Positions 12,461 to 35,419 of a stretch of 35,419 nt of DNA are shown piece by piece. Below the pieces are notes generated by a model. That model saw only the letters and a list, made by a program, of their open reading frames with translations. It ran no database searches and was not told the origin of the DNA. A program made the position numbers and the translations under genes. The first letter of the stretch is position 1. Every line of letters begins with the position of its first letter. Location: assembly GCA_024408505.1 (NCBI GenBank), contig JAKSUZ010000011.1, forward strand, positions 1 through 35,419, read 5' to 3'. This DNA comes from Bacilli bacterium. Lineage in GTDB: Bacteria > Bacillota_I > Bacilli_A > RFN20 > CAG-826.

Positions 12461-14875
12461 TTAAGCCGGTTCTTCATCCATTGCCTTGAGTGTTGCTTCA
12501 TATAGGTTATCAAAAGGAATGTCGATGAAGCTTTGTTCACTATTTTGGCGATTAATTGTTTCAATAAAGTTAGTTACATAAATATTAGCACGACCCACAA
12601 ATTGCTTAATCGTGGTCGAAGAATAAATTTTTCCTAGCAATGTGTCTAGAAACTTTTGCATTTTTTCTTCAGAAAATTCTGTATACTTGTACCAAAAATC
12701 CGGTGGCTCTTTAGATGAGTGTGAGTAATCACAATAATAGTAATAATATCTTCCTGAATTAAAAGTAGATGCAAATACACTTTCTATTGCATATAAAGTC
12801 TCTAATGGATTAAAAAACAGCAAACAGTTTTTAATATAAGACATCCACCGCGTTGCATAATTGAAGCCCTTATCAACACCTTCATCGTTGTTTAGTGCAG
12901 AGTATGCCCGAACAATCAATGAATAATCTTTTTGCCAACTTAAAGCAAGCGCTTTCCCGATAAATGTCGTAAGATGAATATTAAGTAAAGGTACGCGGCT
13001 AAAAATGTCCGCCCAACTAGTAAAAATCTTGTCAAGTTGATCCTGTATTGTAATAGTAAAATAGCTATAAGTATCGGGGCGTTCGGCTGTAAATGTATTA
13101 ATATATGAATATGCACAATTTAAACCGGTACAAGCATAAGCAAACCCGATAGCACCGGCAACAGACATTCCCAGCATTTTTGATAGACCATAAGTGGTAA
13201 AAGCGCTTATAAAATCATCAATAGCAGTGCCCATATTATTAGGGGTGCCGAATTTGCTAGTTGCTATGATTCCCTTAATAATTATTTTAAACGCTTCCAT
13301 TTTATTTTCTGGAATTTCCATCTCTATTCTACTTTCGAATAAATTAATAGCTTTTTGAAGTGGCATAGTAATCTTTGAATAATCAATATAAAAAGAGTCC
13401 ATATACACTTGCATTCTGCTATCTGTTGGCATATATTCTTTGAAGTATAAATCTTCGGATACAAGGTTAAGCTGTGCTCCCATATCCATTGTATATATAG
13501 CACAATCTAAAAACTCTTCCCCATTATCACTTGTGTAGGTACCGACGACGGTTTTAATTGCTTCTATAAAGTTTTCGTACTTTGTGCAATGCTCATTATA
13601 TTGTTTTAAAGCGTTTGCGCCATGTACTGCGATTTCGGTAATGCCATTCACATACTTGCCTTCTTTATCTGCGTCTATTATGTTGGATAAATAGTTATAT
13701 AGATTATATTCAGGCCGGATTGCATCGCTATCAATATAATATCCACCAGCATCAATAAACGCTAAAAGCATTTCTAATTTATTTGATGCATGCGGATCCT
13801 TTATTTCGTTTTTTAGTAATATCAATACTTCTATATACATATTTTCAAATGCAGTGTCATACATTTCATATCCATATTTGCAATAAATAGAAGCAGCATT
13901 GCCCAAACAATCAATTATTGTCGTAAGGTCATCTTGAGTAAAGATTTTTTTAGCTTCTGTTAGCTTTTCATTAACCATTTCTTCCGCTGGGGTATAGCCG
14001 AATTTATCGTTTTGGCGACTGCATCCTCTTATCAAACCGCAGCCAATCTTATCGATTTCTCTAAGTTCAAGCGCTGATGTAGTTTGTGTCGCCTTAGCGA
14101 CATATTTGTCATAAATTTCATCCATAAAATAAGCGCTATCAGATCGCCAATACGATAGTAGCTTAGCGCAACTCAAATCATGTATTGCTGATAGTTGATC
14201 AACAGTCAATTTTTTATTAGCATAATTTTCAATACTATCAAGATATGCCCAGGCAATGTTGTAATATGCTTCATTAGGAACGACACCATTAAATCTTCCA
14301 TCTACCACATCGATTTTATTCATTGTTTCCAAACAAAGGTGAGTCAACTTATAAATCATTTGCATTTGAGTTGGTGATGTTACATTCTTGCTATCGTTTA
14401 TCACCATCATAGCAGTGGGCAACACTTTTCCCTCTACTTCGCTTTCGCCTCCGATTAAGAAGTCTATATAACCGAATGCAATTTGTTTATTAATCGCATA
14501 ATCAATCGCCTTTTGCCCCTCTTCTTCAATGCGTTTACTTAATTCCTTGCGTATTACTTCTGGATCTGTCTCATAAGTTGCAGTTAATACAAGATTACTA
14601 GTAACTGTGATAGTAGAACTAACTATATTACCTTGTTCATCTAGCCAATTACTGAATATACAATCTTCTTCCTCTGGTAACTTATAACCTTCAATTTGAT
14701 TTAAAGTAGTGCCTTCAACTACATTGTTTAAAACTATACATGTTTTACCATCAGAGAACGTTCCTTCCCCTGATTGAAGCGCTACAGCAAAAGTGGTTGC
14801 TGTAGGTGTTGCTGGCGTAGAACAACCACAAAGAATTAAGGGGCTAATTAAAGCCATAAATTTAATATTTTTCAT
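12461..14875 (-). CDS. Large lipoprotein with InlB B-repeat-like (Flg_new) domain, unknown function
   Basis: An 804-residue surface protein that I do not recognise as a whole. The signal peptide MKNIKFMALISPLILCGC has a lipobox (LCGC, lipidated Cys18), so it is anchored to the outer leaflet of the membrane. Residues about 28-102 have the spacing of one InlB B-repeat/Flg_new unit (GEGTFSDGKT, GTTL, FSNWLDEQGN, TSNLVLTATYE). The rest is mostly helical with many aromatic residues and looks like repeats of helical pairs. A hydrophobic stretch (AVAGAIGFAYACTGL) near residue 570 may be buried. The gene runs against replication and ends 6 bases from the ffs terminator. Its promoter predicts a leaderless mRNA. 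Confidence 0.75.
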   Translation of the reverse strand: MKNIKFMALISPLILCGCSTPATPTATTFAVALQSGEGTFSDGKTCIVLNNVVEGTTLNQIEGYKLPEEEDCIFSNWLDEQGNIVSSTITVTSNLVLTATYETDPEVIRKELSKRIEEEGQKAIDYAINKQIAFGYIDFLIGGESEVEGKVLPTAMMVINDSKNVTSPTQMQMIYKLTHLCLETMNKIDVVDGRFNGVVPNEAYYNIAWAYLDSIENYANKKLTVDQLSAIHDLSCAKLLSYWRSDSAYFMDEIYDKYVAKATQTTSALELREIDKIGCGLIRGCSRQNDKFGYTPAEEMVNEKLTEAKKIFTQDDLTTIIDCLGNAASIYCKYGYEMYDTAFENMYIEVLILLKNEIKDPHASNKLEMLLAFIDAGGYYIDSDAIRPEYNLYNYLSNIIDADKEGKYVNGITEIAVHGANALKQYNEHCTKYENFIEAIKTVVGTYTSDNGEEFLDCAIYTMDMGAQLNLVSEDLYFKEYMPTDSRMQVYMDSFYIDYSKITMPLQKAINLFESRIEMEIPENKMEAFKIIIKGIIATSKFGTPNNMGTAIDDFISAFTTYGLSKMLGMSVAGAIGFAYACTGLNCAYSYINTFTAERPDTYSYFTITIQDQLDKIFTSWADIFSRVPLLNIHLTTFIGKALALSWQKDYSLIVRAYSALNNDEGVDKGFNYATRWMSYIKNCLLFFNPLETLYAIESVFASTFNSGRYYYYYCDYSHSSKEPPDFWYKYTEFSEEKMQKFLDTLLGKIYSSTTIKQFVGRANIYVTNFIETINRQNSEQSFIDIPFDNLYEATLKAMDEEPA

Positions 14876-23329: not shown

Positions 23330-24190
23330 TTATTTGTAGGTAACGTTCGATTCTACAAAGCCACTAATCACTGTAGGCTTATCTTCATTATTGCAGTTAA
23401 ATCCAGGGTCAGATTCAGGTCGCATAGGCACATTGTCGAAATGAAAATTAACACTATCAACAGTGCCGTATTCTCCAAACCAATGAATATAGCCAGAAAC
23501 GCCTCCTTCCACTTCTTCGTATACAATAATATTCGATGAAATAATTACCATTGCATCATCGGCTTTTGGTGATTCGTTCCATGTTGTAACATATAACGTT
23601 TCATCTTCCCTACTTAGAAATTTTATACCGCTATGGAAGGGTTGTATCCCATATGACTCAATTTCAGACGATGTAAAGATATGTTCATCGACTAGTTCGG
23701 TGAAGATAGGTGTTGATGCCGGGAATAATTCATTTAATCCATCTAGTATTGCTTGACCAAGTTCGCTGTCTTTATCAATATCAGGAAAAGAATATTTAAG
23801 ATGTAGACCAATAACTTTGTGAGGATCGGTTCCTGATTTTCGATTTTTTAGCCATCTTTCTGCGCCGCGATAGTCAATCTCTTTTCCGCCGAAAGATGAG
23901 TTAGCCTCCATATATATAGCGGTTTTATTAGTAATATTAAAAGATAATTTACCAGTATTAGGATCATAATAAAAATCATTAGCGCCACCGATTATGAGCT
24001 CATCTTTGCTGGGTAAAGTAAAATACGGATAAGGTGTGAAAGTTAAATCAACTCTTTCACCAGAATTATATTGCTCTTTTAAACCTTCCACTGTGCAGTA
24101 TTTAAATTTTACTTTTAAATCAACTGCACCATTGTGACAACTTGTGATTGCTATAGCCATTAATGGCATAATAAATAATATTTTCTTCAT
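23330..24190 (-). CDS. Lipoprotein of unknown function
   Basis: A 286-residue protein, not recognised. The signal peptide MKKILFIMPLMAIAITSC has a clear lipobox (AITSC, Cys18). The mature part is rich in aromatic residues and Asp/Glu/Asn and looks mostly beta. HHH or enzymatic motifs are not seen. The ATG is 6 bases from a perfect -10 box, so the mRNA should be leaderless, like that of the other lipoprotein gene in the window. The stop faces the mscL stop. It lies after the tldE gene on the same strand but has its own promoter. Confidence 0.75.
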   Translation of the reverse strand: MKKILFIMPLMAIAITSCHNGAVDLKVKFKYCTVEGLKEQYNSGERVDLTFTPYPYFTLPSKDELIIGGANDFYYDPNTGKLSFNITNKTAIYMEANSSFGGKEIDYRGAERWLKNRKSGTDPHKVIGLHLKYSFPDIDKDSELGQAILDGLNELFPASTPIFTELVDEHIFTSSEIESYGIQPFHSGIKFLSREDETLYVTTWNESPKADDAMVIISSNIIVYEEVEGGVSGYIHWFGEYGTVDSVNFHFDNVPMRPESDPGFNCNNEDKPTVISGFVESNVTYK

Positions 24191-28121: not shown

Positions 28122-29537
28122 TTATTTCTCCTTCTTAACGATATTGCGTGCGATATAGACACCGCATGCTCCGGCTTGAGCAAGCCCACGAGTAAGGCCT
28201 GCGCCATCACCAGCCACATATAAATTCTTAATTGAATTAACTTCTAATTCATTATTAATATCTGGATGCGCGGTATAGTATTTTGATTCCACGCCATAAA
28301 GTAAAGTATGGTCCATCGCAATACCTGGAGTGATATGATCAAGTACTCTAATCATCTCTACGATTGAACGAAGGGTTTTATAAGGAAGCACTAAAGCTAA
28401 ATCGCCAGGCACCGCTTCTTTTAGTGTAGGCTTTACAAAACCTTCTTTTAAACGTTTATAAGTTGTTCTTCTATTTAATAATAAGTCACCAAACTTTTGA
28501 ACAATAACTGAACCACAACTTAATTGATTCGCTAATTTAGAAACTTTATAAGCATATTCATTTGGTTTCTTAAATGGTTCTTCAAAGTGATGAGAGACTA
28601 ATAAAGCAAAGTTAGTGTTCTTACTATGAAGTTTACTATCATTATATGAATGACCATTAACATTAACCACTCCACCATAGTTTTCAACGACTACGTGTCC
28701 ACCTGGATTAGAACAGAAGGTTCTCACTGAATTACCAGACTTAGTGCGATATACGAACTTACCTTCATATAAGTTCTCATTAATTTCTTGCATAATACGG
28801 TTATCACATTCAACTCGCACACCAATATCAACTTGGTTTTGAGTCATCTTAACACCTTTAGACTCAAGAATATCGGTTAACCATGAACTGCCTTCACGTC
28901 CCACGCCTAATACTACATATTTCGCTTCAATCTTGCTGTTATCATCCAAAACGACACCTGAGACTTTATTGTTCTTAACGATAATATCTTTTACATTCGT
29001 GGAGAACTTCATATCCACTCTCTTTTTTAAGTCGTTATATATTTTAGTTAAGATCTTTAAATTCTCTTCGGTACCTAGATGTCTTACTTTAGCGCGTAAT
29101 AACTTAACGCCTACTGACATCGCTCTTAATTCAATTTCATGCACTTTAGGGGTATTAGGGTCAGTAATCGTCTTAGTTGCGCCATAACTTAAATTAATCT
29201 TATCGACGTAATTGATTAAGCTTAATAACTCATCTTCATCAATATAATCAGTTAACCAACCACCAAATTCAGTGGTGATATTAAACTTACCATCAGAATA
29301 TGCACCTGCTCCACCAAATCCATTCGTGATACTACAAGCCGGATAACATTCGTTGTGACCTTTTAAAGTATTTGGGCATTTAGTGAGTTTATGCTCTAAG
29401 ACTGGGCAATGACGTTTAGTGATATCTAATCCGCGATCAATTAAAAGAACCTTCATCTTAGGATTAAGTTTCGCTAATTCGTAGGCATTAAAGTATCCAC
29501 TAGGACCCGCGCCAACGATAATCACATCATATTTCAT
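28122..29537 (-). CDS. FAD-dependent dehydrogenase, COG2509-like
   Basis: A 471-residue NAD(P)/FAD-dependent oxidoreductase. The N-terminal dinucleotide fold is KYDVIIVGAGPSGYF (Gly9, Gly11, Gly14). An atypical insert with Cys residues follows the first fold: CPNTLKGHNECYPACS then NGFGGAGAYSDGKFN. The second FAD contact is YVAGDGAGLTRGLAQAG near the end, a strong match to uncharacterised FAD dehydrogenases of COG2509. The start at 29537 has GGAG 9 bases upstream; the ATG at 29558 has no ribosome-binding site and would add seven residues. It is the first gene of the operon with the F420-ligase-like protein, TldD and TldE, and its stop is one base from the next ATG. Confidence 0.88.
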   Translation of the reverse strand: MKYDVIIVGAGPSGYFNAYELAKLNPKMKVLLIDRGLDITKRHCPVLEHKLTKCPNTLKGHNECYPACSITNGFGGAGAYSDGKFNITTEFGGWLTDYIDEDELLSLINYVDKINLSYGATKTITDPNTPKVHEIELRAMSVGVKLLRAKVRHLGTEENLKILTKIYNDLKKRVDMKFSTNVKDIIVKNNKVSGVVLDDNSKIEAKYVVLGVGREGSSWLTDILESKGVKMTQNQVDIGVRVECDNRIMQEINENLYEGKFVYRTKSGNSVRTFCSNPGGHVVVENYGGVVNVNGHSYNDSKLHSKNTNFALLVSHHFEEPFKKPNEYAYKVSKLANQLSCGSVIVQKFGDLLLNRRTTYKRLKEGFVKPTLKEAVPGDLALVLPYKTLRSIVEMIRVLDHITPGIAMDHTLLYGVESKYYTAHPDINNELEVNSIKNLYVAGDGAGLTRGLAQAGACGVYIARNIVKKEK

Positions 29538-29560
29538 CAGTCTAAACTCCGCAGGCATTT

Positions 29561-29580
29561 ATTTTACCATATAGGTAAAA
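29561..29580 (-). promoter_or_regulatory. Promoter of the FAD dehydrogenase/TldDE operon inside an inverted repeat
   Basis: Minus strand: extended -10 TGGTAAAAT (29569-29561). The perfect inverted repeat TTTTACC/GGTAAAA (29562-29568, 29574-29580) overlaps it, making a candidate operator. The start would be near 29554, leaving a leader of about 17 bases with GGAG. Confidence 0.5.
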
Positions 29581-29645
29581 AAATGGTTGTTTAATTTTCT
29601 AAGATAAAAATACGGGATATAAAATAATATTGATTTTTGTATTTT

Positions 29646-29684
29646 TTGACATTATCATAGTATTTGTCTGTATTTATTAAATAC
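29646..29684 (+). promoter_or_regulatory. Promoter of the exported-protein gene, with palindrome
   Basis: TTGACA (29646-29651), 17-base spacer, TGTATT (29669-29674), or TATTTA with a 19-base spacer. The odd palindrome GTATTTATTAAATAC (29670-29684) lies over the -10 and start, a candidate repressor site. AAGGGAG (29685-29691) is the ribosome-binding site. Confidence 0.5.
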
Positions 29685-29698
29685 AAGGGAGATTTTAT

Positions 29699-32089
29699 AT
29701 GAAAAAAGTATTAGTACTATCAGCTCTTGGTTGCGTAGCAACTATAGGCGCAGTATTTGCGGCCTTTACGCTTGATCCAACAAATGAATCGAAAGAGATT
29801 CCAAGTGTCAATGTTGATGTTGACCTATCATCGCATGTTTTCTCAACGTTTGAACGTATTTACAAAATCGATTATGAGGATTATGAGGATGGTGCGAACC
29901 AACTATGGAAAGATGTAACTATTAGTGAGCCTAAATATCACTTTAAACCGAAAAATATATATAGCGGAAGCGGTGCTATTGTAGGCACGACACTAGATTT
30001 ACATTGTGATGATTATGATATTGGCGATATGTCGCTTTATTGTCAAAAACGCGAGGATGAACCAGATCCATCAAAGACTGAAGAACATGCACAATGGGAA
30101 AAAGAGCTTGCAGAATTAGCTCCTACTGGTTATGCATTTAAATATGAGTATGATAATGATTTCCTTACTCGTATTAAAGTTGATGACAAAAGACCTGGCG
30201 ACATGCAAGAGTGGGAATATGCTATTTATAAAACCAATTTCTCATCTGGTTTAACTAAATCTGACTTCAAGGCGAAGGCTGATTCTACAAGAACAGAAGA
30301 TCCACACGGACTCGATGAATTTGGCATTCATTATCAAGATCCTGATGCAACCAAACCTAACTATAAAGAATTTGTTTGGGATAAAAGCAGTTTAGACCGT
30401 GATGCGAAAACTGGACAATATCCATGGATTTCGGGTAACCCCTATGATCCTAGTGCTGAAGATGCCAAAAATCCTGGTTTCTACATTCAACCAAATGTGG
30501 ATGATAATGGAAGACCATTAAATAGTGGTGTAATTTTCTTTACCGGTGCAGAATTAACCGAAAATTTATTTGCGGGTAATTTTACTGATGAAGCTGCTGT
30601 TAAAGCATGTGAAGAATATTTAAATGAAACAGAGGAAGGATCTACCACTAAATTTTTACATAGAAACTTTGCTTTGAAGATTAAGGCTTCTGAATACTTT
30701 AAAGTTGAATCTCATGAATTAAATCCTGATGGAACAGCAAAATTTGTATATTACAACAACAGTGGTTCAGGAGAACCGATGGCTTCTGGAAATAGATATA
30801 GTTTTAGCTTTGAAGTTGATGAAGAAACCGATCAATTATTTAAAGATGGATTTGAAATTGATAAGTTCGTTATCACTAATCAATCGGATCAAGAACCACT
30901 TCTTTTACTAACTGAAGAAGCTGCTAAGGCAGGCGATGTTGATGCGTTAGGCTTAAAAGTTATGTTAGATAGTCCTGGAAATGGTGTATCTGATATTACA
31001 AGATTCTTCAAATACAGTACTGATAGAGGTGATCAAGAGCACTACGCTAGCATCTATTTCGATGATACCGTAGCTTTGAATGCGGTTGGTGATTTACCTG
31101 AAAAGGGCGATAAAATTACGTTTAATTTCGTATTTAGACAAACTACTGGCAAGGTAGAAAGAGAAGATTGGTTCGCAGCACGACTCAATTTAAATAAACC
31201 AATAAAGAAATTTTTTGAATTGCAAGATGGTGGTAGCGGAACATATGTGTTCGCACCAGCAGATCCAGTGTCAATGCCAAAAGGTGGAACTTATCGTTTT
31301 GAAGCTTTATATAACATGGATAAATATTTTAATACCTTATCATTCACTAACAATGGAGAACCGGTGGCGATAACAAGCGAAATTGCTAAACCATACTTTG
31401 TTGATCAAAATGGTGGAATAAGAGCAATGCCTAGCGAGTATTATGCATTTAATGATGATGGTACCCTCACATTTTACGATGAACTAATCCGTTCAAAAGA
31501 AGTGTTCAACGAGGGCGATAGATACGCTGTTGATATTAGAAACAATGATGAGGCGACTCCTTTAGTAGTTAGCAGGGCTGAACTTACTACTGCGCCAGCT
31601 CCTAGAAGAATTCAGTTTAATAGTTATACCCCTGGTGGTGAATTATTATCAACTGGTCACTTTATGATGATTGACCCCGGTGATTCAGTAAGATCAATTC
31701 ATAGTGGTGTGTTACTTAGTTTTGACGTTTTTATTGATGATGATAAATTTTGGGACTCTTTGAATGCATTTATCGCAGACACCACTGGTTATACCGCAAA
31801 ATTAACATTTGCTTTACTTGATGACTCGCTAGACCCAATTCCAATGGCTGCAGGAACCCCAGTTTTCACAGTTAAGAGATTAAATAAAATGGGCGAACTA
31901 ATATCTACTGATACTACCCAATTTGAGTATAGCAATGGTGTTATATCAACTAAAGGTGATGGTGCTGATTACCTCAAAACATGGAAGAGAGAAGATGCAT
32001 GCTTTCATTTGGTTATTGATGTTAACTACGAAGGCGAAGAGGTTAAATTTAAAGGCGCTGACTTCGCTTTTGAAATTACTGAACCGTAA
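29699..32089 (+). CDS. Large exported protein with SipW-type signal peptide
   Basis: A 796-residue secreted protein, not recognised beyond its export signal. The N-terminus MKKVLVLSALGCVATIGAVF then AAFTLDPTNE resembles SipW-dependent signal peptides (KKK..LLS...G.T.AYFTD). The gene beside it encodes a SipW-like peptidase, so cleavage near AVFA/AF is likely. The mature part is acidic (many Asp/Glu/Thr), without a lipobox, sortase motif or C-terminal membrane anchor. The second half alternates beta-rich segments such as GDKITFNFVF and SGVLLSFDVFIDDDKF, suggesting repeated beta domains. TasA/CalY-type SipW substrates are about 200-260 residues; this one is about three times longer. It ends 20 bases before a strong terminator. 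Confidence 0.7.
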   Translation: MKKVLVLSALGCVATIGAVFAAFTLDPTNESKEIPSVNVDVDLSSHVFSTFERIYKIDYEDYEDGANQLWKDVTISEPKYHFKPKNIYSGSGAIVGTTLDLHCDDYDIGDMSLYCQKREDEPDPSKTEEHAQWEKELAELAPTGYAFKYEYDNDFLTRIKVDDKRPGDMQEWEYAIYKTNFSSGLTKSDFKAKADSTRTEDPHGLDEFGIHYQDPDATKPNYKEFVWDKSSLDRDAKTGQYPWISGNPYDPSAEDAKNPGFYIQPNVDDNGRPLNSGVIFFTGAELTENLFAGNFTDEAAVKACEEYLNETEEGSTTKFLHRNFALKIKASEYFKVESHELNPDGTAKFVYYNNSGSGEPMASGNRYSFSFEVDEETDQLFKDGFEIDKFVITNQSDQEPLLLLTEEAAKAGDVDALGLKVMLDSPGNGVSDITRFFKYSTDRGDQEHYASIYFDDTVALNAVGDLPEKGDKITFNFVFRQTTGKVEREDWFAARLNLNKPIKKFFELQDGGSGTYVFAPADPVSMPKGGTYRFEALYNMDKYFNTLSFTNNGEPVAITSEIAKPYFVDQNGGIRAMPSEYYAFNDDGTLTFYDELIRSKEVFNEGDRYAVDIRNNDEATPLVVSRAELTTAPAPRRIQFNSYTPGGELLSTGHFMMIDPGDSVRSIHSGVLLSFDVFIDDDKFWDSLNAFIADTTGYTAKLTFALLDDSLDPIPMAAGTPVFTVKRLNKMGELISTDTTQFEYSNGVISTKGDGADYLKTWKREDACFHLVIDVNYEGEEVKFKGADFAFEITEP

Positions 32090-32108
32090 GTAAACTATCT
32101 ACATATAT

Positions 32109-32136
32109 AAGGCGCAGAGACATCTGCGCCTTTATT
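32109..32136 (+). terminator. Strong terminator between exported protein and signal peptidase
   Basis: AAGGCGCAGA (32109-32118), loop GACA, TCTGCGCCTT (32123-32132), a perfect 10-bp GC-rich stem, then TTATT. The sipW-like ATG is 12 bases further on and no separate good promoter is seen. Readthrough would give far less peptidase than substrate. Confidence 0.85.
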
Positions 32137-32143
32137 GTCTCTA

Positions 32144-33352
32144 ATGGAACGAAATCAAATAATCTTACTCATCATAGGCATCATTGTTGCTGTGTTCGTA
32201 GGAGGAACGATGGCGCTTATTTTGCTCTATGGAGAGAAGCAAAGAAATCGTTTAGCGGAAGTTGGAGATATTGATGAAGATCTTAAAAGAGAATATATTT
32301 CAGAACATAGATATAAGCCGTTTCGAATAGGTGGGAAAGTTTTAGAGTTAGTAATTGCTTTAGGACTTATTTCCTTATTCACGATGGCGTTAGTGGTGAA
32401 GGCGAATGGTGATCGCTTTGCCATTAATGGACAAGATGTTTATGTTGTGCGTTCAGGTTCGATGGCGAAATTAAATCCAAATAATCCAGACTATGATTTT
32501 ATGAAGGATTTTCATGATCGCTTTGATGTTTACGATATGGTCTTTATTAAAGATAAACCAGTTGATCCTGCTGAGTTTCAACTTGGTCAAATTATTATGT
32601 ATAAAAGCGGCGAACAAAATATTATCCACCGCCTTGTTGAAATTAAAAAACCTAGTGAAACACCAGACTCTCAATATCATTATATTTGTTGTGGAGATGC
32701 GAATGCATTCCGTGATGGTTATGTTACTTACGATGATATTGTAGGCGTGTACGCTGATCATAAAGTTCCATTTGTAGGTGTATTCGTTTTGTGGCTACAA
32801 AGTCCATTAGGATACGTAGTAATCGGTATTATCGTAGTGTACGGTATTTATTCAACCTACCTCGAAGATAGTTTAAATAAAGTTCGCAATAAACGTTTAG
32901 TGGAAATCGGTTATTTAGTGCGCCGTAAGAAGAAACATGGTGGAGTGAAATACTATTTAAACGATAATCCATCTTCTAGTGAACCTAAGAGTGTAGAAAA
33001 CCGAACGGTCAATAAAAACATCAAAGAACCGGTTGTTAAGTTCAATAGACGAGACTATATCAGCATGAGACGTCTCACTTGGTATAAGTTCTCTAAACCA
33101 TCAAAGAGTAAATTTAATTGCACAAATTATCGTTATAAAGTTATGAAATGTCTAAATTATCGATATATATGCATTAAAGTTACTTTTGAATGTAAAGGTA
33201 AGGATATCTCTAAATACTTATTCTTATATAAACGTCCAGATGTTGATGATATCGCTCGTGCGAACAAATGCATTCGCTACTTATCCCATAGTGGTAAACT
33301 TAATAGCTATATTAGATATCATTTAAGATTGTACGAAAACAAAAATAAGTAA
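32144..33352 (+). CDS. sipW: SipW-like (ER-type) signal peptidase I
   Basis: Membrane signal peptidase of the S26B/ER type. From the ATG it has 402 residues. Segments: TM1 about 6-29, TM2 about 65-87, catalytic Ser106 in VVRSGSM, catalytic His162 in NIIHRLVEI (the His in place of the Lys of classical SPase I), and GDANAFRDGYV carrying the Asp. A third membrane span is about 208-240. The C-terminal 160 residues are very basic and rich in Tyr/Asn; B. subtilis SipW is about 190 residues. No Shine-Dalgarno sequence precedes the ATG and TTG at 32135 is an alternative. It sits directly after the exported protein, matching the SipW-TasA gene pair logic. Confidence 0.88.
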   Translation: MERNQIILLIIGIIVAVFVGGTMALILLYGEKQRNRLAEVGDIDEDLKREYISEHRYKPFRIGGKVLELVIALGLISLFTMALVVKANGDRFAINGQDVYVVRSGSMAKLNPNNPDYDFMKDFHDRFDVYDMVFIKDKPVDPAEFQLGQIIMYKSGEQNIIHRLVEIKKPSETPDSQYHYICCGDANAFRDGYVTYDDIVGVYADHKVPFVGVFVLWLQSPLGYVVIGIIVVYGIYSTYLEDSLNKVRNKRLVEIGYLVRRKKKHGGVKYYLNDNPSSSEPKSVENRTVNKNIKEPVVKFNRRDYISMRRLTWYKFSKPSKSKFNCTNYRYKVMKCLNYRYICIKVTFECKGKDISKYLFLYKRPDVDDIARANKCIRYLSHSGKLNSYIRYHLRLYENKNK

Positions 33353-33396
33353 CGTAATTTTTATTTAAAATATAAAATATAGAAATTATTTAAAAA

Positions 33397-33466
33397 TCTA
33401 TATTTATAGATAAATATAAAAAAATAAGTGAGTAATTTAGTCTCTTTTTGTTAAGTAACTAATAAG
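33397..33466 (+). repeat. Direct repeat copy 1 (about 70 bp), with inverted repeats
   Basis: Near-identical to the copy at 33787 (about 90 % by eye). It contains ATATTTAT-AG-ATAAATAT (perfect 8-bp inverted repeat), seven A, then GAG-TAATTTAGT-CTC with TTTTTG, and TTAAGTAACTAATAAG. It lies after the sipW gene and before the small gene at 33503. The 44 bases before it are AT-rich with no other feature. Confidence 0.8.
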
Positions 33467-33502
33467 CCTACTACGGTTATTTTCAAGTGGAGGTAGACGA
33501 TT

Positions 33503-33784
33503 ATGAAAAGAGACTTAAAAAATATGGTGGAATTAAAAGAATTTCTAAAAAATCTCTCAGCGAATTTAAAAGTTCCGGTGTATACTGAAAGCGAAGATGG
33601 AGCTAAACCAGTGAAAAATACAAAAGATAGAGTCACATTGAAACAAGTCGTTGATATAATGAATGATAAGTTTCAAAAACTAGAAGCAAAAGTTGATGCT
33701 GGTTTTAAACAAGTAAATGATCGTCTTGATTACATCGTAAGCGTAAATAATCTAAAAGATCTTCCAAAAACAAAAATTAAGTAA
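33503..33784 (+). CDS. Small coiled-coil protein of unknown function
   Basis: A 93-residue protein, not recognised. It starts MKRDLKNMVELKEFLKNLS with TGGAGG 9 bases upstream. Residues about 45-78 (LKQVVDIMNDKFQKLEAKVD...GFKQVNDRLDYIV) form an amphipathic helix with coiled-coil spacing, like the KLE.KVD.GF..VN.RLD repeats seen in phage tail and small accessory proteins. It is highly charged and has no membrane segment. It is enclosed by the two ~70-bp repeats, which suggests an accessory gene. A link to the neighbouring toxin-like locus is possible but unproved. Confidence 0.6.
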   Translation: MKRDLKNMVELKEFLKNLSANLKVPVYTESEDGAKPVKNTKDRVTLKQVVDIMNDKFQKLEAKVDAGFKQVNDRLDYIVSVNNLKDLPKTKIK

Positions 33785-33786
33785 AT

Positions 33787-33857
33787 TCTATATTTACTTT
33801 GTAAATATAAAAAAATAAGTGAGGAAATTAGCCTCTTTTTGTTAAGTAACTAATAAG
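33787..33857 (+). repeat. Direct repeat copy 2 (about 70 bp), with inverted repeats
   Basis: Copy of the repeat at 33397. The hairpin is ATATTTAC-TTT-GTAAATAT, with C-G where copy 1 has T-A, a compensated change. The second hairpin is GAGG-AAATTAG-CCTC then TTTTTG, a plausible terminator of the small gene. It ends TAATAAGGAGG, which supplies a ribosome-binding site for the short frame at 33867. The TTGTTA within it (33839-33844) and TATTGT (33863-33868) could form a weak promoter. Confidence 0.8.
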
Positions 33858-33866
33858 GAGGATATT

Positions 33867-33959
33867 GTGCATATGCACTTTATCTTTCCTAGGCGCCTAC
33901 CCTTTATCTCCTTGGTGCTGCAACAAAGGAGGAGAGCGTGCTCGATACCATTTTGCTGA
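33867..33959 (+). CDS. Possible 30-codon leader peptide overlapping the toxin start
   Basis: GTG (or the ATG at 33873) with AAGGAGG 5 bases upstream opens a 30-codon frame, MHFIFPRRLPFISLVLQQRR and onward from the ATG, that ends at TGA inside the toxin frame. The start lies in the perfect palindrome GTGCATATGCAC (33867-33878). Leader translation could open the hairpin that hides the toxin ribosome-binding site, as in other type I toxins. The coding status is speculative. Confidence 0.3.
   Translation: MHMHFIFPRRLPFISLVLQQRRRACSIPFC
33908..33931 (+). promoter_or_regulatory. Hairpin sequestering the toxin ribosome-binding site
   Basis: CTCCTT (33908-33913) pairs with AAGGAG (33926-33931), the Shine-Dalgarno core for the GTG at 33938. 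A 12-base loop lies between. Such masking is typical of type I toxin mRNAs. Confidence 0.5.
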
Positions 33960-34003
33960 TGGTAGTATTGACGTTACTGATTGAGTTAATCTCGCGAAGG
34001 TAA
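33938..34003 (+). CDS. Tiny hydrophobic peptide, holin-like type I toxin candidate
   Basis: Reading from the GTG with AAGGAGGAG upstream gives 21 residues: start Met/Val, LDTILLMVVLTLLIELIS, then RR. This is one membrane helix with a basic C-terminal end. It is too short for usual gene finders. It resembles Bacillota 'putative holin-like toxin' peptides (pattern EALTLLVTFAMVVIALL). In those loci the stop codon is followed closely by a run of A and a GC-rich hairpin, exactly as seen here (AAAAAAGGGCGG...CCGTCC). GC content here is well above the flanking genes, hinting at an acquired element. The toxin role is inferred from architecture. Confidence 0.55.
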   Translation: MLDTILLMVVLTLLIELISRR

Positions 34004-34005
34004 TG

Positions 34006-34040
34006 AAAAAAGGGCGGTCATCCCGTCCTCAACATTAAGC
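34006..34040 (-). ncRNA. Candidate antisense RNA (antitoxin) opposite the toxin 3' end
   Basis: On the minus strand a promoter (34075-34047) would start RNA near 34040. It runs into GGACGG-GATGA-CCGCCC (34028-34012; one mismatched pair on this strand) followed by six T (34011-34006), which is an intrinsic terminator. The product of about 35 nt would end opposite the toxin stop; readthrough would cover the toxin frame. This is the layout of type I antitoxin RNAs, but the short length is unusual. Confidence 0.45.
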
Positions 34041-34046
34041 GAAATA

Positions 34047-34075
34047 ATGATAGCACCTCGTAGGAGTCTTGTAAA
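34047..34075 (-). promoter_or_regulatory. Minus-strand promoter facing the toxin gene
   Basis: -35 TTTACA (34075-34070), exact 17-base spacer, extended -10 TGCTATCAT (34055-34047). A strong consensus promoter with no protein gene after it on that strand. Confidence 0.7.
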
Positions 34076-34089
34076 GGGGCGAGTGCCGA

Positions 34090-34110
34090 CCCGGATCCTT
34101 TGGGTCCGGG
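34090..34110. repeat. GC-rich hairpin between the toxin locus and rpsF
   Basis: CCCGGATCC-TTT-GGGTCCGGG, a 9-bp stem (one G-U on the plus strand). No U-run on either side, so it is not a usual terminator. It could cap the 3' end of the toxin mRNA. A ribosome-binding-site-like AAGGAGG at 34118-34124 leads only to a frame of eight codons. Nothing else is seen between 34111 and 34163. Confidence 0.5.
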
Positions 34111-34163
34111 GTTAAATAAGGAGGTGAAAAAGGTCAAATTTATTATCTAGGATAATATTTATT

Positions 34164-34192
34164 TTGCGTATTAAGTGTTTTAGTTATACAAT
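34164..34192 (+). promoter_or_regulatory. rpsF-ssb-rpsR promoter
   Basis: TTGCGT (34164-34169), 17-base spacer, TACAAT (34187-34192), start near 34199. The -35 and spacing match the rpmH promoter, and both spacers contain AAGT. Confidence 0.7.
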
Positions 34193-34198
34193 ATGTCC

Positions 34199-34278
34199 CT
34201 ACGATTAATTTATTAGTCGTTACTCTCTTGCTATTATTACTTTAGGTAATAGCCAGATGTCCAAAGGAGGGAAATGTA
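34199..34278 (+). promoter_or_regulatory. Structured rpsF leader, possible autoregulatory element
   Basis: Two hairpins fill the 80-base leader: ACGATTA-ATTTAT-TAGTCGT (34201-34220, one G-U) and GCTATTA...TAATAGC (34230-34253; an alternative pairing is GCT, ATT bulge, ATTAC-TTTAG-GTAAT, AGC). AAAGGAGGG follows directly. S6:S18 binding leaders are known before rpsF in many bacteria. The CCG feature of that motif is not visible here, so it may be a variant or an unrelated structure. Confidence 0.45.
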
Positions 34279-34569
34279 ATGAAAAAGTACGAGATTATGT
34301 ACATCTTACGCGCTGATCTAGAAGATGCTAGCCGTAAGAAAGAAGTTGAAAAACTTCATAACATTTTGACTAAGAATGGAGTAAAAATCACTAAGGTTGA
34401 TGAATGGGGCGTCAGAGATTTTGCCTACATCATTAAAGACCAAAAGAAGGGCTATTATATGGTCCTTAAGGTTTTAGCCGAAGCCGATCAACTTGCCGAA
34501 TTCTCACGCTTAATCCGCATTGATGAAAATGTTATTCGTTTCTTAATTACTGTCAGTCACGGTAATTAA
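34279..34569 (+). CDS. rpsF: Ribosomal protein bS6
   Basis: Small-subunit protein S6, 96 residues, which forms a complex with S18 on 16S rRNA. The signature MKKYEIMYILRADLED and the central VDEWGVRDFAYIIKDQKKGYYMVLKV match the family pattern (WG.R.LAY.I.....G.Y). The C-terminal LIRIDENVIRFLITV is typical. AAAGGAGGG precedes the ATG. First gene of rpsF-ssb-rpsR, the order conserved near the origin of Bacillota. Confidence 0.96.
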   Translation: MKKYEIMYILRADLEDASRKKEVEKLHNILTKNGVKITKVDEWGVRDFAYIIKDQKKGYYMVLKVLAEADQLAEFSRLIRIDENVIRFLITVSHGN

Positions 34570-34604
34570 TTACTCAAGCGAATTGATTAAGGAGGAATTA
34601 AATA

Positions 34605-35030
34605 ATGGTCAATCGAGTAGTATTAGTAGGTCGCTTAACTCGCGATCCAGAATTAAGAAAGACCAACAGTGATAAACCTGTTGCTTCTTTCACTTTAGCG
34701 GTCGATAACCGCAATAAAGGCGCTGATGGTCAAAAGACCGCCAGTTTTATTCCAGTTACCGTCTGGAATGATCAAGCCACCAATGTTTGTAAATATGTAA
34801 GAAAAGGCTCACTCGTTGGAGTAGATGGTCGTCTCTTACAAAGAAGTTATGAGAAGAAGGACGGAACTAAAGCAAGTGTCTTAGAAGTCGTTGCCGATTC
34901 TGTTCAATTCTTAGAGCCAAAAGGTGCAAACAAAGAAACGGCGAATGTTACTAAGGAAGATGTTGCTCAACCACAACCAGACGCCAAAATGGAAGGCGTG
35001 GATATTGTGGATGATGATCTTCCATTCTAA
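34605..35030 (+). CDS. ssb: Single-stranded DNA-binding protein
   Basis: OB-fold protein that coats single-stranded DNA, 141 residues. The OB fold (1-105) starts [20 protein letters not shown], with [38 protein letters not shown] and [12 protein letters not shown] linker rich in Gln/Pro/Asp follows, and it ends DDDLPF, the conserved tip that recruits repair and replication partners. AAGGAGG lies upstream. It sits 35 bases after rpsF and is co-transcribed with it. Confidence 0.97.
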
Positions 35031-35050
35031 TTAAACTAAAGGAGAATATT

Positions 35051-35278
35051 ATGGGATTTAAAAAAGTTAGACAACATAAGAAATCTTGTTATTTCAAGAA
35101 AGCGCATATTGAATGGATCGATTATAAGGATGTTGAACTCCTTCAAAGATTCATTATGCCAAATGGCAAGATTATGCCAAGTTATCTATCTGGTACTAGT
35201 GCGAAGTATCAACGCCAATTAGCAAGAGCGATTAAAAATGCTCGCTATATGGGATTACTTCCATTCATTGCTGAATAA
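35051..35278 (+). CDS. rpsR: Ribosomal protein bS18
   Basis: Small-subunit protein S18, partner of S6, 75 residues. Recognised by [25 protein letters not shown] and [26 protein letters not shown]. Two features differ: the usual ILPRR.TG reads IMPSYLSG, so the near-universal Arg-Arg is replaced, and the N-terminus is short. AAAGGAG precedes the ATG by 8 bases. Last gene of the rpsF operon. Confidence 0.95.
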
Positions 35279-35307
35279 ATAAACAAAAAGGAAACCCTAC
35301 GTACTGA

Positions 35308-35329
35308 TGTGAACCCTGTTTAGTTCACA
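35308..35329 (+). repeat. Hairpin in the rpsR 3' region
   Basis: TGTGAAC (35308-35314) pairs with GTTCACA (35323-35329) across an 8-base loop. No U-run follows, so it is upstream structure in the rpsR 3' untranslated region before the true terminator. Confidence 0.5.
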
Positions 35330-35349
35330 CCAAAAGAAAACCCGTTATA

Positions 35350-35381
35350 AATAGGAAGGGAGAGATCCCTTCTTATTTTTT
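35350..35381 (+). terminator. Intrinsic terminator of the rpsF-ssb-rpsR operon
   Basis: AATAGGAAGGGA (35350-35361), loop GAGA, TCCCTTCTTATT (35366-35377): a 12-bp stem with one G-U, then TTTT. Nothing further can be assigned up to the window end. Confidence 0.9.
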
Positions 35382-35419
35382 AATCTCTTCGTGTTATAAA
35401 ACTTTATCCATTCTTTAAC

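Follow-up and report, generated by a model that had tools for sequence, protein, structure and literature searches.

We found that the window, the whole stretch of 35,419 nucleotides that was analysed, carries what is probably an accessory two-gene export module for an adhesin-like protein of the cell surface or matrix. The two genes, coding for the exported protein ORF796 and a SipW/ER-type signal peptidase (SPase), form a real and very probably dedicated pair with a secretion logic of a known kind; the novelty lies in how large and isolated the substrate is, in its sequence, and in the pair being present or absent as a unit. The dedicated secretion pair proposed in the earlier note is well supported: such genes are linked at 37/41 loci of relatives, the signal and cleavage motif match, the genome shows one enzyme and one substrate, and both genes are present or absent together, with an empty site in congeners. 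In the mechanism we propose, ORF796 would be translocated by Sec, and the SPase, an enzyme of the ER/archaeal type (Ser106, His162, Asp185) whose gene follows after 54 nt, would cut its SipW-type motif (GAVFA/AF, with an aromatic P2' residue) after Ala21 to free an 87-kDa acidic protein. The freed protein would be adhesin-like, rich in beta structure and located at the surface or in the matrix, with Ig-like domains as part of its make-up; having no sortase motif and no second membrane span, it may be released or held non-covalently. The features on which this rests are as follows:

29685-29692, forward strand: putative ribosome-binding site of ORF796, AAGGGAGA (read from the sequence)
29699-32089, forward strand: ORF796, exported protein, 796-aa precursor (ORF and sequence analysis)
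29699-29761, forward strand: predicted SipW-type signal peptide, residues 1-21 (PSSM, 23.8 bits; signal alignment A2; P2' rule, PMC10269814)
32144-33352, forward strand: SipW/ER-type SPase, ATG start, basic C-terminal tail of ~152 aa (profiles, alignment, L118 N-terminus)
32459-32461, forward strand: catalytic Ser106 codon (invariant, alignment A1)
32627-32629, forward strand: catalytic His162 codon (invariant, alignment A1)
32696-32698, forward strand: Asp185 codon, GDAN motif (invariant, alignment A1)

ORF796 begins with an ATG placed 6 nt downstream of AAGGGAGA. Its predicted mature form has 775 aa, a mass of 87.4 kDa and a pI of 4.47, so that the acidic 796-aa ORF with a hydrophobic N-terminus described earlier was borne out. 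The predicted cleavage, VFA21/A22-F23 within the signal motif LSALGCVATIGAVFA/AFT, leaves an aromatic residue at P2', as is typical of SipW substrates. On a PSSM trained on the SPase neighbours at other loci (L035-L063), with ORF796 left out, it scored 23.8 bits against 1.5 for the next-best ORF in the window, which upholds the earlier call of a SipW-type signal peptide. TasA likewise has a Phe at P2' and is poorly cleaved by Escherichia coli LepB, SipW being the dedicated enzyme (PMC10269814). ORF796 thus combines two hallmarks of a SipW-type substrate, namely a signal with an aromatic P2' residue and a gene adjoining a SipW-type SPase. It shows neither a hydrophobic segment after the signal peptide nor an LPxTG motif, the marks of a sortase-assembled pilin.

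The SPase gene most likely starts at ATG 32144, from which its residues are numbered: the N-terminus MERNQIILLIIGI aligns with MSRNDFILLILGI of the enzyme from locus L118, an alternative TTG being available at 32135. S106, M107, H162, R163, G184 and D185 are invariant in 27 sequences (boxes SxSM, HR and GD), and the enzyme scores 54.8 bits with TIGR02228 (sigpep_I_arch), above the cut-off of 51.85; the ER-type signal peptidase with Ser106 and His162 that had been recognized earlier is therefore confirmed. With the Bacillus SipW equivalog profile NF046067 (SipWBacil) it reaches 39.8 bits, below the cut-off of 190, and by these profiles it appears to share the superfamily of Bacillus SipW but not that equivalog. 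The enzyme contains three hydrophobic stretches and ends in a basic tail of ~152 aa (pI 10). Homology of this tail to a 107-aa tail domain of related SPases seemed plausible by eye but was not supported. In the SPase tree the window enzyme groups, on a long branch, with those of genomes G020 and G068 (support 99/97); the partner at the G068 locus is a 977-aa DUF285-repeat protein, and the G020 partners share the signal of ORF796. The SPase had no match in plasmids, and a scan of genome contigs with the SPase alone yielded no match.

SipW-type SPases are present in 150/224 genomes of the family, spanning 28/35 genera, and the neighbourhood survey that had been proposed showed that their linkage to partners recurs. 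Among 41 independent loci, that is, those not used for training the PSSM, there were 37 in which one or more SipW-type partners lie no further than two genes from the SPase. Of the same-strand genes inside this distance, 67/143 carry the signal, as against 16/236 of those farther away (Fisher p 1e-19; 41 loci), and the nine strong matches among the latter all belong to clusters that extend further at the same loci. The P2' residue is aromatic (Trp, Phe or Tyr) in 59 of the 67 adjacent partners of these test loci, most of which measure 177-384 aa, with eight exceeding 500 aa. When all 59 loci with a partner are considered, leaving out the window, 17 have a partner of at least 480 aa, which a small partner nearly always accompanies; a large partner without a small neighbour, as ORF796 is, was otherwise seen only at locus L050. 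Thirteen loci of the order have proteins of 700-990 aa that adjoin a SipW-type SPase and bear a signal like that of ORF796. Those compared with ORF796 are unrelated to it in sequence beyond the signal peptide, and they are accompanied by small SipW-type partners, whereas ORF796 stands alone. Further, many SPases of these large-partner loci carry a separate 107-aa tail domain.

This ~107-aa cytosolic domain is found in one to four copies at the C-termini of the SPases of nine loci, and it goes with large partners (7/9 loci versus 10/50; Fisher p 0.0014, uncorrected for shared ancestry). The example from L118 matched no Pfam family above the cut-off; at the same locus, a SipW-linked protein of 977 aa (L118:9053-11986) consists of DUF285 (BspA-like leucine-rich) repeats. 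Separately, ten loci of the order represent a recurrent type with small SipW-type partners, the SPase, a ~600-aa membrane protein, a ~440-aa protein, an ABC ATPase and a ~535-aa permease-like protein, together with a ~820-aa protein in many of them. We know of no description of this locus type.

Two features of the non-coding DNA at the window locus had been proposed to regulate it:

32109-32132, forward strand: hairpin between the ORF796 and SPase genes (z -3.87; marginal T-tract)
29669-29685, no strand: 8-bp inverted repeat, earlier taken for an operator; not above chance

The hairpin (10 bp, -19 kcal/mol) is far more stable than shuffled sequences. Its T-tract (TATTGTCT) is poor, so that of the strong terminator claimed by the earlier note the hairpin is real, but its strength was overstated; it is possibly a leaky terminator or an mRNA processing element. 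No Shine-Dalgarno sequence occurs just before the SPase ATG. The order substrate-hairpin-enzyme and this missing element suggest that the enzyme would be made in a smaller amount than its substrate, and a terminator-based stoichiometry is plausible. The sipW operon of Clostridium perfringens is reported to have an internal terminator with read-through, in a gene order reversed with respect to the window (PMC7395162). Upstream of ORF796, the best perfect inverted repeat has 8-bp arms. When this AT-rich region was shuffled with its dinucleotides preserved, arms at least as long arose in 11.6% of cases, and promoter-like sites were as frequent in the shuffled sequences as in the real one or more so; the palindrome and the on-off switch attributed to it thus did not hold up.

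The mature part of ORF796 is an orphan. Searches of Pfam and NCBIfam gave no match and those of PDB sequences no credible one, and no relatives were found among 279 genomes of the order or in viral contigs, phages and plasmids. Its function is consequently without a conservation or covariation signal. No homology to the other large SipW-linked proteins was recovered beyond the signal peptide with phmmer and hhalign; a weak match in genome G022 (L002/L054), a nucleotidase-like lipoprotein, was taken as chance. Thus, the earlier description of a protein of a new type stands as regards its lack of relatives, while the size contrast with substrates of 200-260 residues is softened by the recurrence of large SipW-linked proteins in the order. 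An AF2 model of the full-length mature protein was unusable (pLDDT 36), and structure prediction was informative only for the segment of residues 525-650, which, folded alone from its single sequence, gave a predicted Ig-like sandwich (pLDDT 69, pTM 0.64):

31271-31588, forward strand: predicted Ig-like beta-sandwich, residues 525-630 (AF2 model of residues 525-650)
30629-30838, forward strand: residues 311-380, possible diverged repeat of residues 559-622 (Smith-Waterman)

The best structural matches of residues 525-630 are largely domains of Gram-positive pilins and MSCRAMM/adhesins (Z 5-6; Foldseek E >= 0.06), a weak resemblance that falls short of a conclusive level. The Ig-like domains of EbpB, RrgB, PilB, ClfB and SdrD resemble the predicted sandwich at this level, within the range expected of common arrangements; unlike these proteins, ORF796 has no LPxTG sorting signal, and it shares no significant sequence similarity with them. 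TasA is not among the fold matches, which, coming from a single modelled segment, exclude nothing. The repeat is weak (Smith-Waterman score 58, matched by 0/300 shuffles; nine segments tried). This one Ig-like or adhesin-like domain model weakly points to a matrix, fibre or surface-layer function.

A narrower form of the preferred explanation, that ORF796 is a fibre or surface-layer subunit analogous to TasA, BsaA or an S-layer protein, is possible but doubtful. Known SipW systems do export polymer-forming proteins (TasA, BsaA), and the acidic ORF796, without a membrane or sortase anchor, may contain an Ig-like domain. However, searches against Pfam, NCBIfam and PDB sequences gave no match to TasA, camelysin (Pfam M73) or S-layer families, the search for TasA/camelysin domains suggested earlier having come up empty in Pfam and NCBIfam. 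Further, the small TasA-sized partner present in nearly all other large-partner loci is missing here, so a TasA-type fibre would be without its usual subunit.

We then considered the genomic setting. The window lies near a replication origin (dnaA, dnaN, recF, gyrB, gyrA, serS) of its genome (G000), a 1.23-Mb draft in 53 contigs that is 87% complete. The nearest named relatives of the FAD-dependent protein encoded beside the locus are from MAGs of animal-gut and rumen Bacilli, the closest, Horse_feces345, being 98% identical. Comparison with the nearest congener, G001, delimited a variable segment:

29581-34111, no strand: segment absent from the syntenic site of G001 (synteny comparison)

It contains ORF796, the SPase, a 93-aa ORF and repeats. 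The flanking DNA is 90-93% identical to that of G001, with homology ending at 29580 and restarting at 34112; against G002 it ends at 29600 and restarts at 34152. In both congeners the site is empty, the FAD gene directly adjoining rpsF-ssb-rpsR, and neither ORF796 nor the SPase was found in any of the four congeners searched. Because the flanks are joined in G001 and G002, the pair represents a species-variable segment of ~4.5 kb, which by synteny has been either gained in the window genome or lost in the congeners. A foreign base composition was rejected, GC and GC3 being the same as in the flanks.

Several small elements accompany the site. A 56-nt direct repeat (33411-33466 and 33802-33857, 95% identical) lies on either side of the 93-aa orphan ORF (33503-33784), and the empty site of G001 has a similar element. 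At 33938-34003 an ORF encodes a 21-aa hydrophobic peptide (MLDTILLMVVLTLLIELISRR) that recalls type I toxin peptides; the small hydrophobic ORF found at this site in G001 is a different one. An Rfam scan of 29000-35419 gave no match above the gathering score. Elsewhere in the window, a lipoprotein-like ORF (23330-24190) occupies another variable site, where G001 has three different lipoprotein ORFs and G002 none, and an 804-aa lipoprotein-like ORF (12461-14875) has no Pfam match.

Within the window genome, for which our statements rest on profile searches, the signal profile retrieved ORF796 only (E 1e-9), the next matches being a lipoprotein and a non-gene; ORF796 was included in the alignment of that profile, and the independent evidence is therefore the PSSM. 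No other type I SPase was detected with TIGR02227 or PF10502, both of which were positive in 14/14 control genomes at the same threshold. The SPase would provisionally be the only type I SPase, and ORF796 the only SipW-type substrate, of this draft genome, given its 53 contigs and 87% completeness. A bolder reading, which we regard as rather unlikely, is that the locus is a self-contained and horizontally exchangeable one-enzyme-one-substrate cassette, in which the SPase arrived with its 87-kDa substrate, a new multidomain protein of a surface array or filament unrelated to TasA, in a genus otherwise apparently without a type I SPase.

The SipW-like enzyme might instead be a general type I SPase, placed beside ORF796 by descent from a sipW locus and not by a dedicated role. 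This would accord with the finding that no LepB-type SPase was detected in the five genomes of the genus searched with TIGR02227 (G000-G004), nor in G000 with PF10502, as against its presence in 182/224 family genomes. However, the four congeners lack the window enzyme too, so that the genus appears to live without a recognizable type I SPase; moreover, the SPase gene lies in a species-specific insert, a single SipW-type signal was found in the genome, and many family genomes have both kinds of enzyme. We therefore consider a general role improbable. We attach a similarly low probability to ORF796 being a secreted enzyme or effector against competitors or the host that merely uses the SipW route: it is a large single-copy orphan in an accessory insert with small variable ORFs beside it, but domain searches found no catalytic or effector domain in it, its one modelled segment looks structural, and the partners scanned in other SipW loci matched no enzyme family. 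Chance adjacency, for which one might cite the hairpin separating the genes and the lack of relationship of mature ORF796 to any other SipW-linked protein examined, is very improbable for two genes on the same strand, 54 nt apart, in the same insert, with a matching signal motif and a 37/41 linkage in relatives.

The preferred reading, an export module for an adhesin-like protein, places the locus beside a few known systems. SipW processes TasA and TapA, the biofilm matrix proteins of Bacillus subtilis, which are ~200-260 residues long. As in the window, the tapA-sipW-tasA locus of B. subtilis and the sipW-tasA/calY locus of B. cereus encode an ER-type SPase beside its substrates, which are exported independently of sortase and have a SipW-type signal with an aromatic P2' residue. 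In contrast to their several substrates of ~200-260 aa, the window has one of 796 aa, with no second partner and no TasA/camelysin match, and its SPase differs from Bacillus SipW in the basic C-terminal tail of ~150 aa and the weak SipWBacil score (39.8 vs 190). The sipW-bsaABCRSD operon of C. perfringens also pairs a dedicated SipW with adjacent secreted proteins, and its terminator with read-through compares with the window hairpin; BsaA, however, is a polymerizing protein of ~23 kDa, and the operon order differs (PMC7395162). The bsa two-component regulators have no counterpart adjoining the window pair.

Work on SipW-type systems has dealt with a few species of Bacillus and Clostridium, in which the fibre proteins are small. 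In our analysis the same logic proved widespread among gut and rumen Bacilli of an uncultured order (150/224 family genomes), and roughly 30% of the loci that we examined have large partners. The window locus is its minimal form, one enzyme and one large orphan substrate that are present or absent as a unit. It draws attention to surface proteins that are as yet unexplored in gut bacteria, and it is small enough to serve as a test case for the co-specificity of SPases and their substrates.
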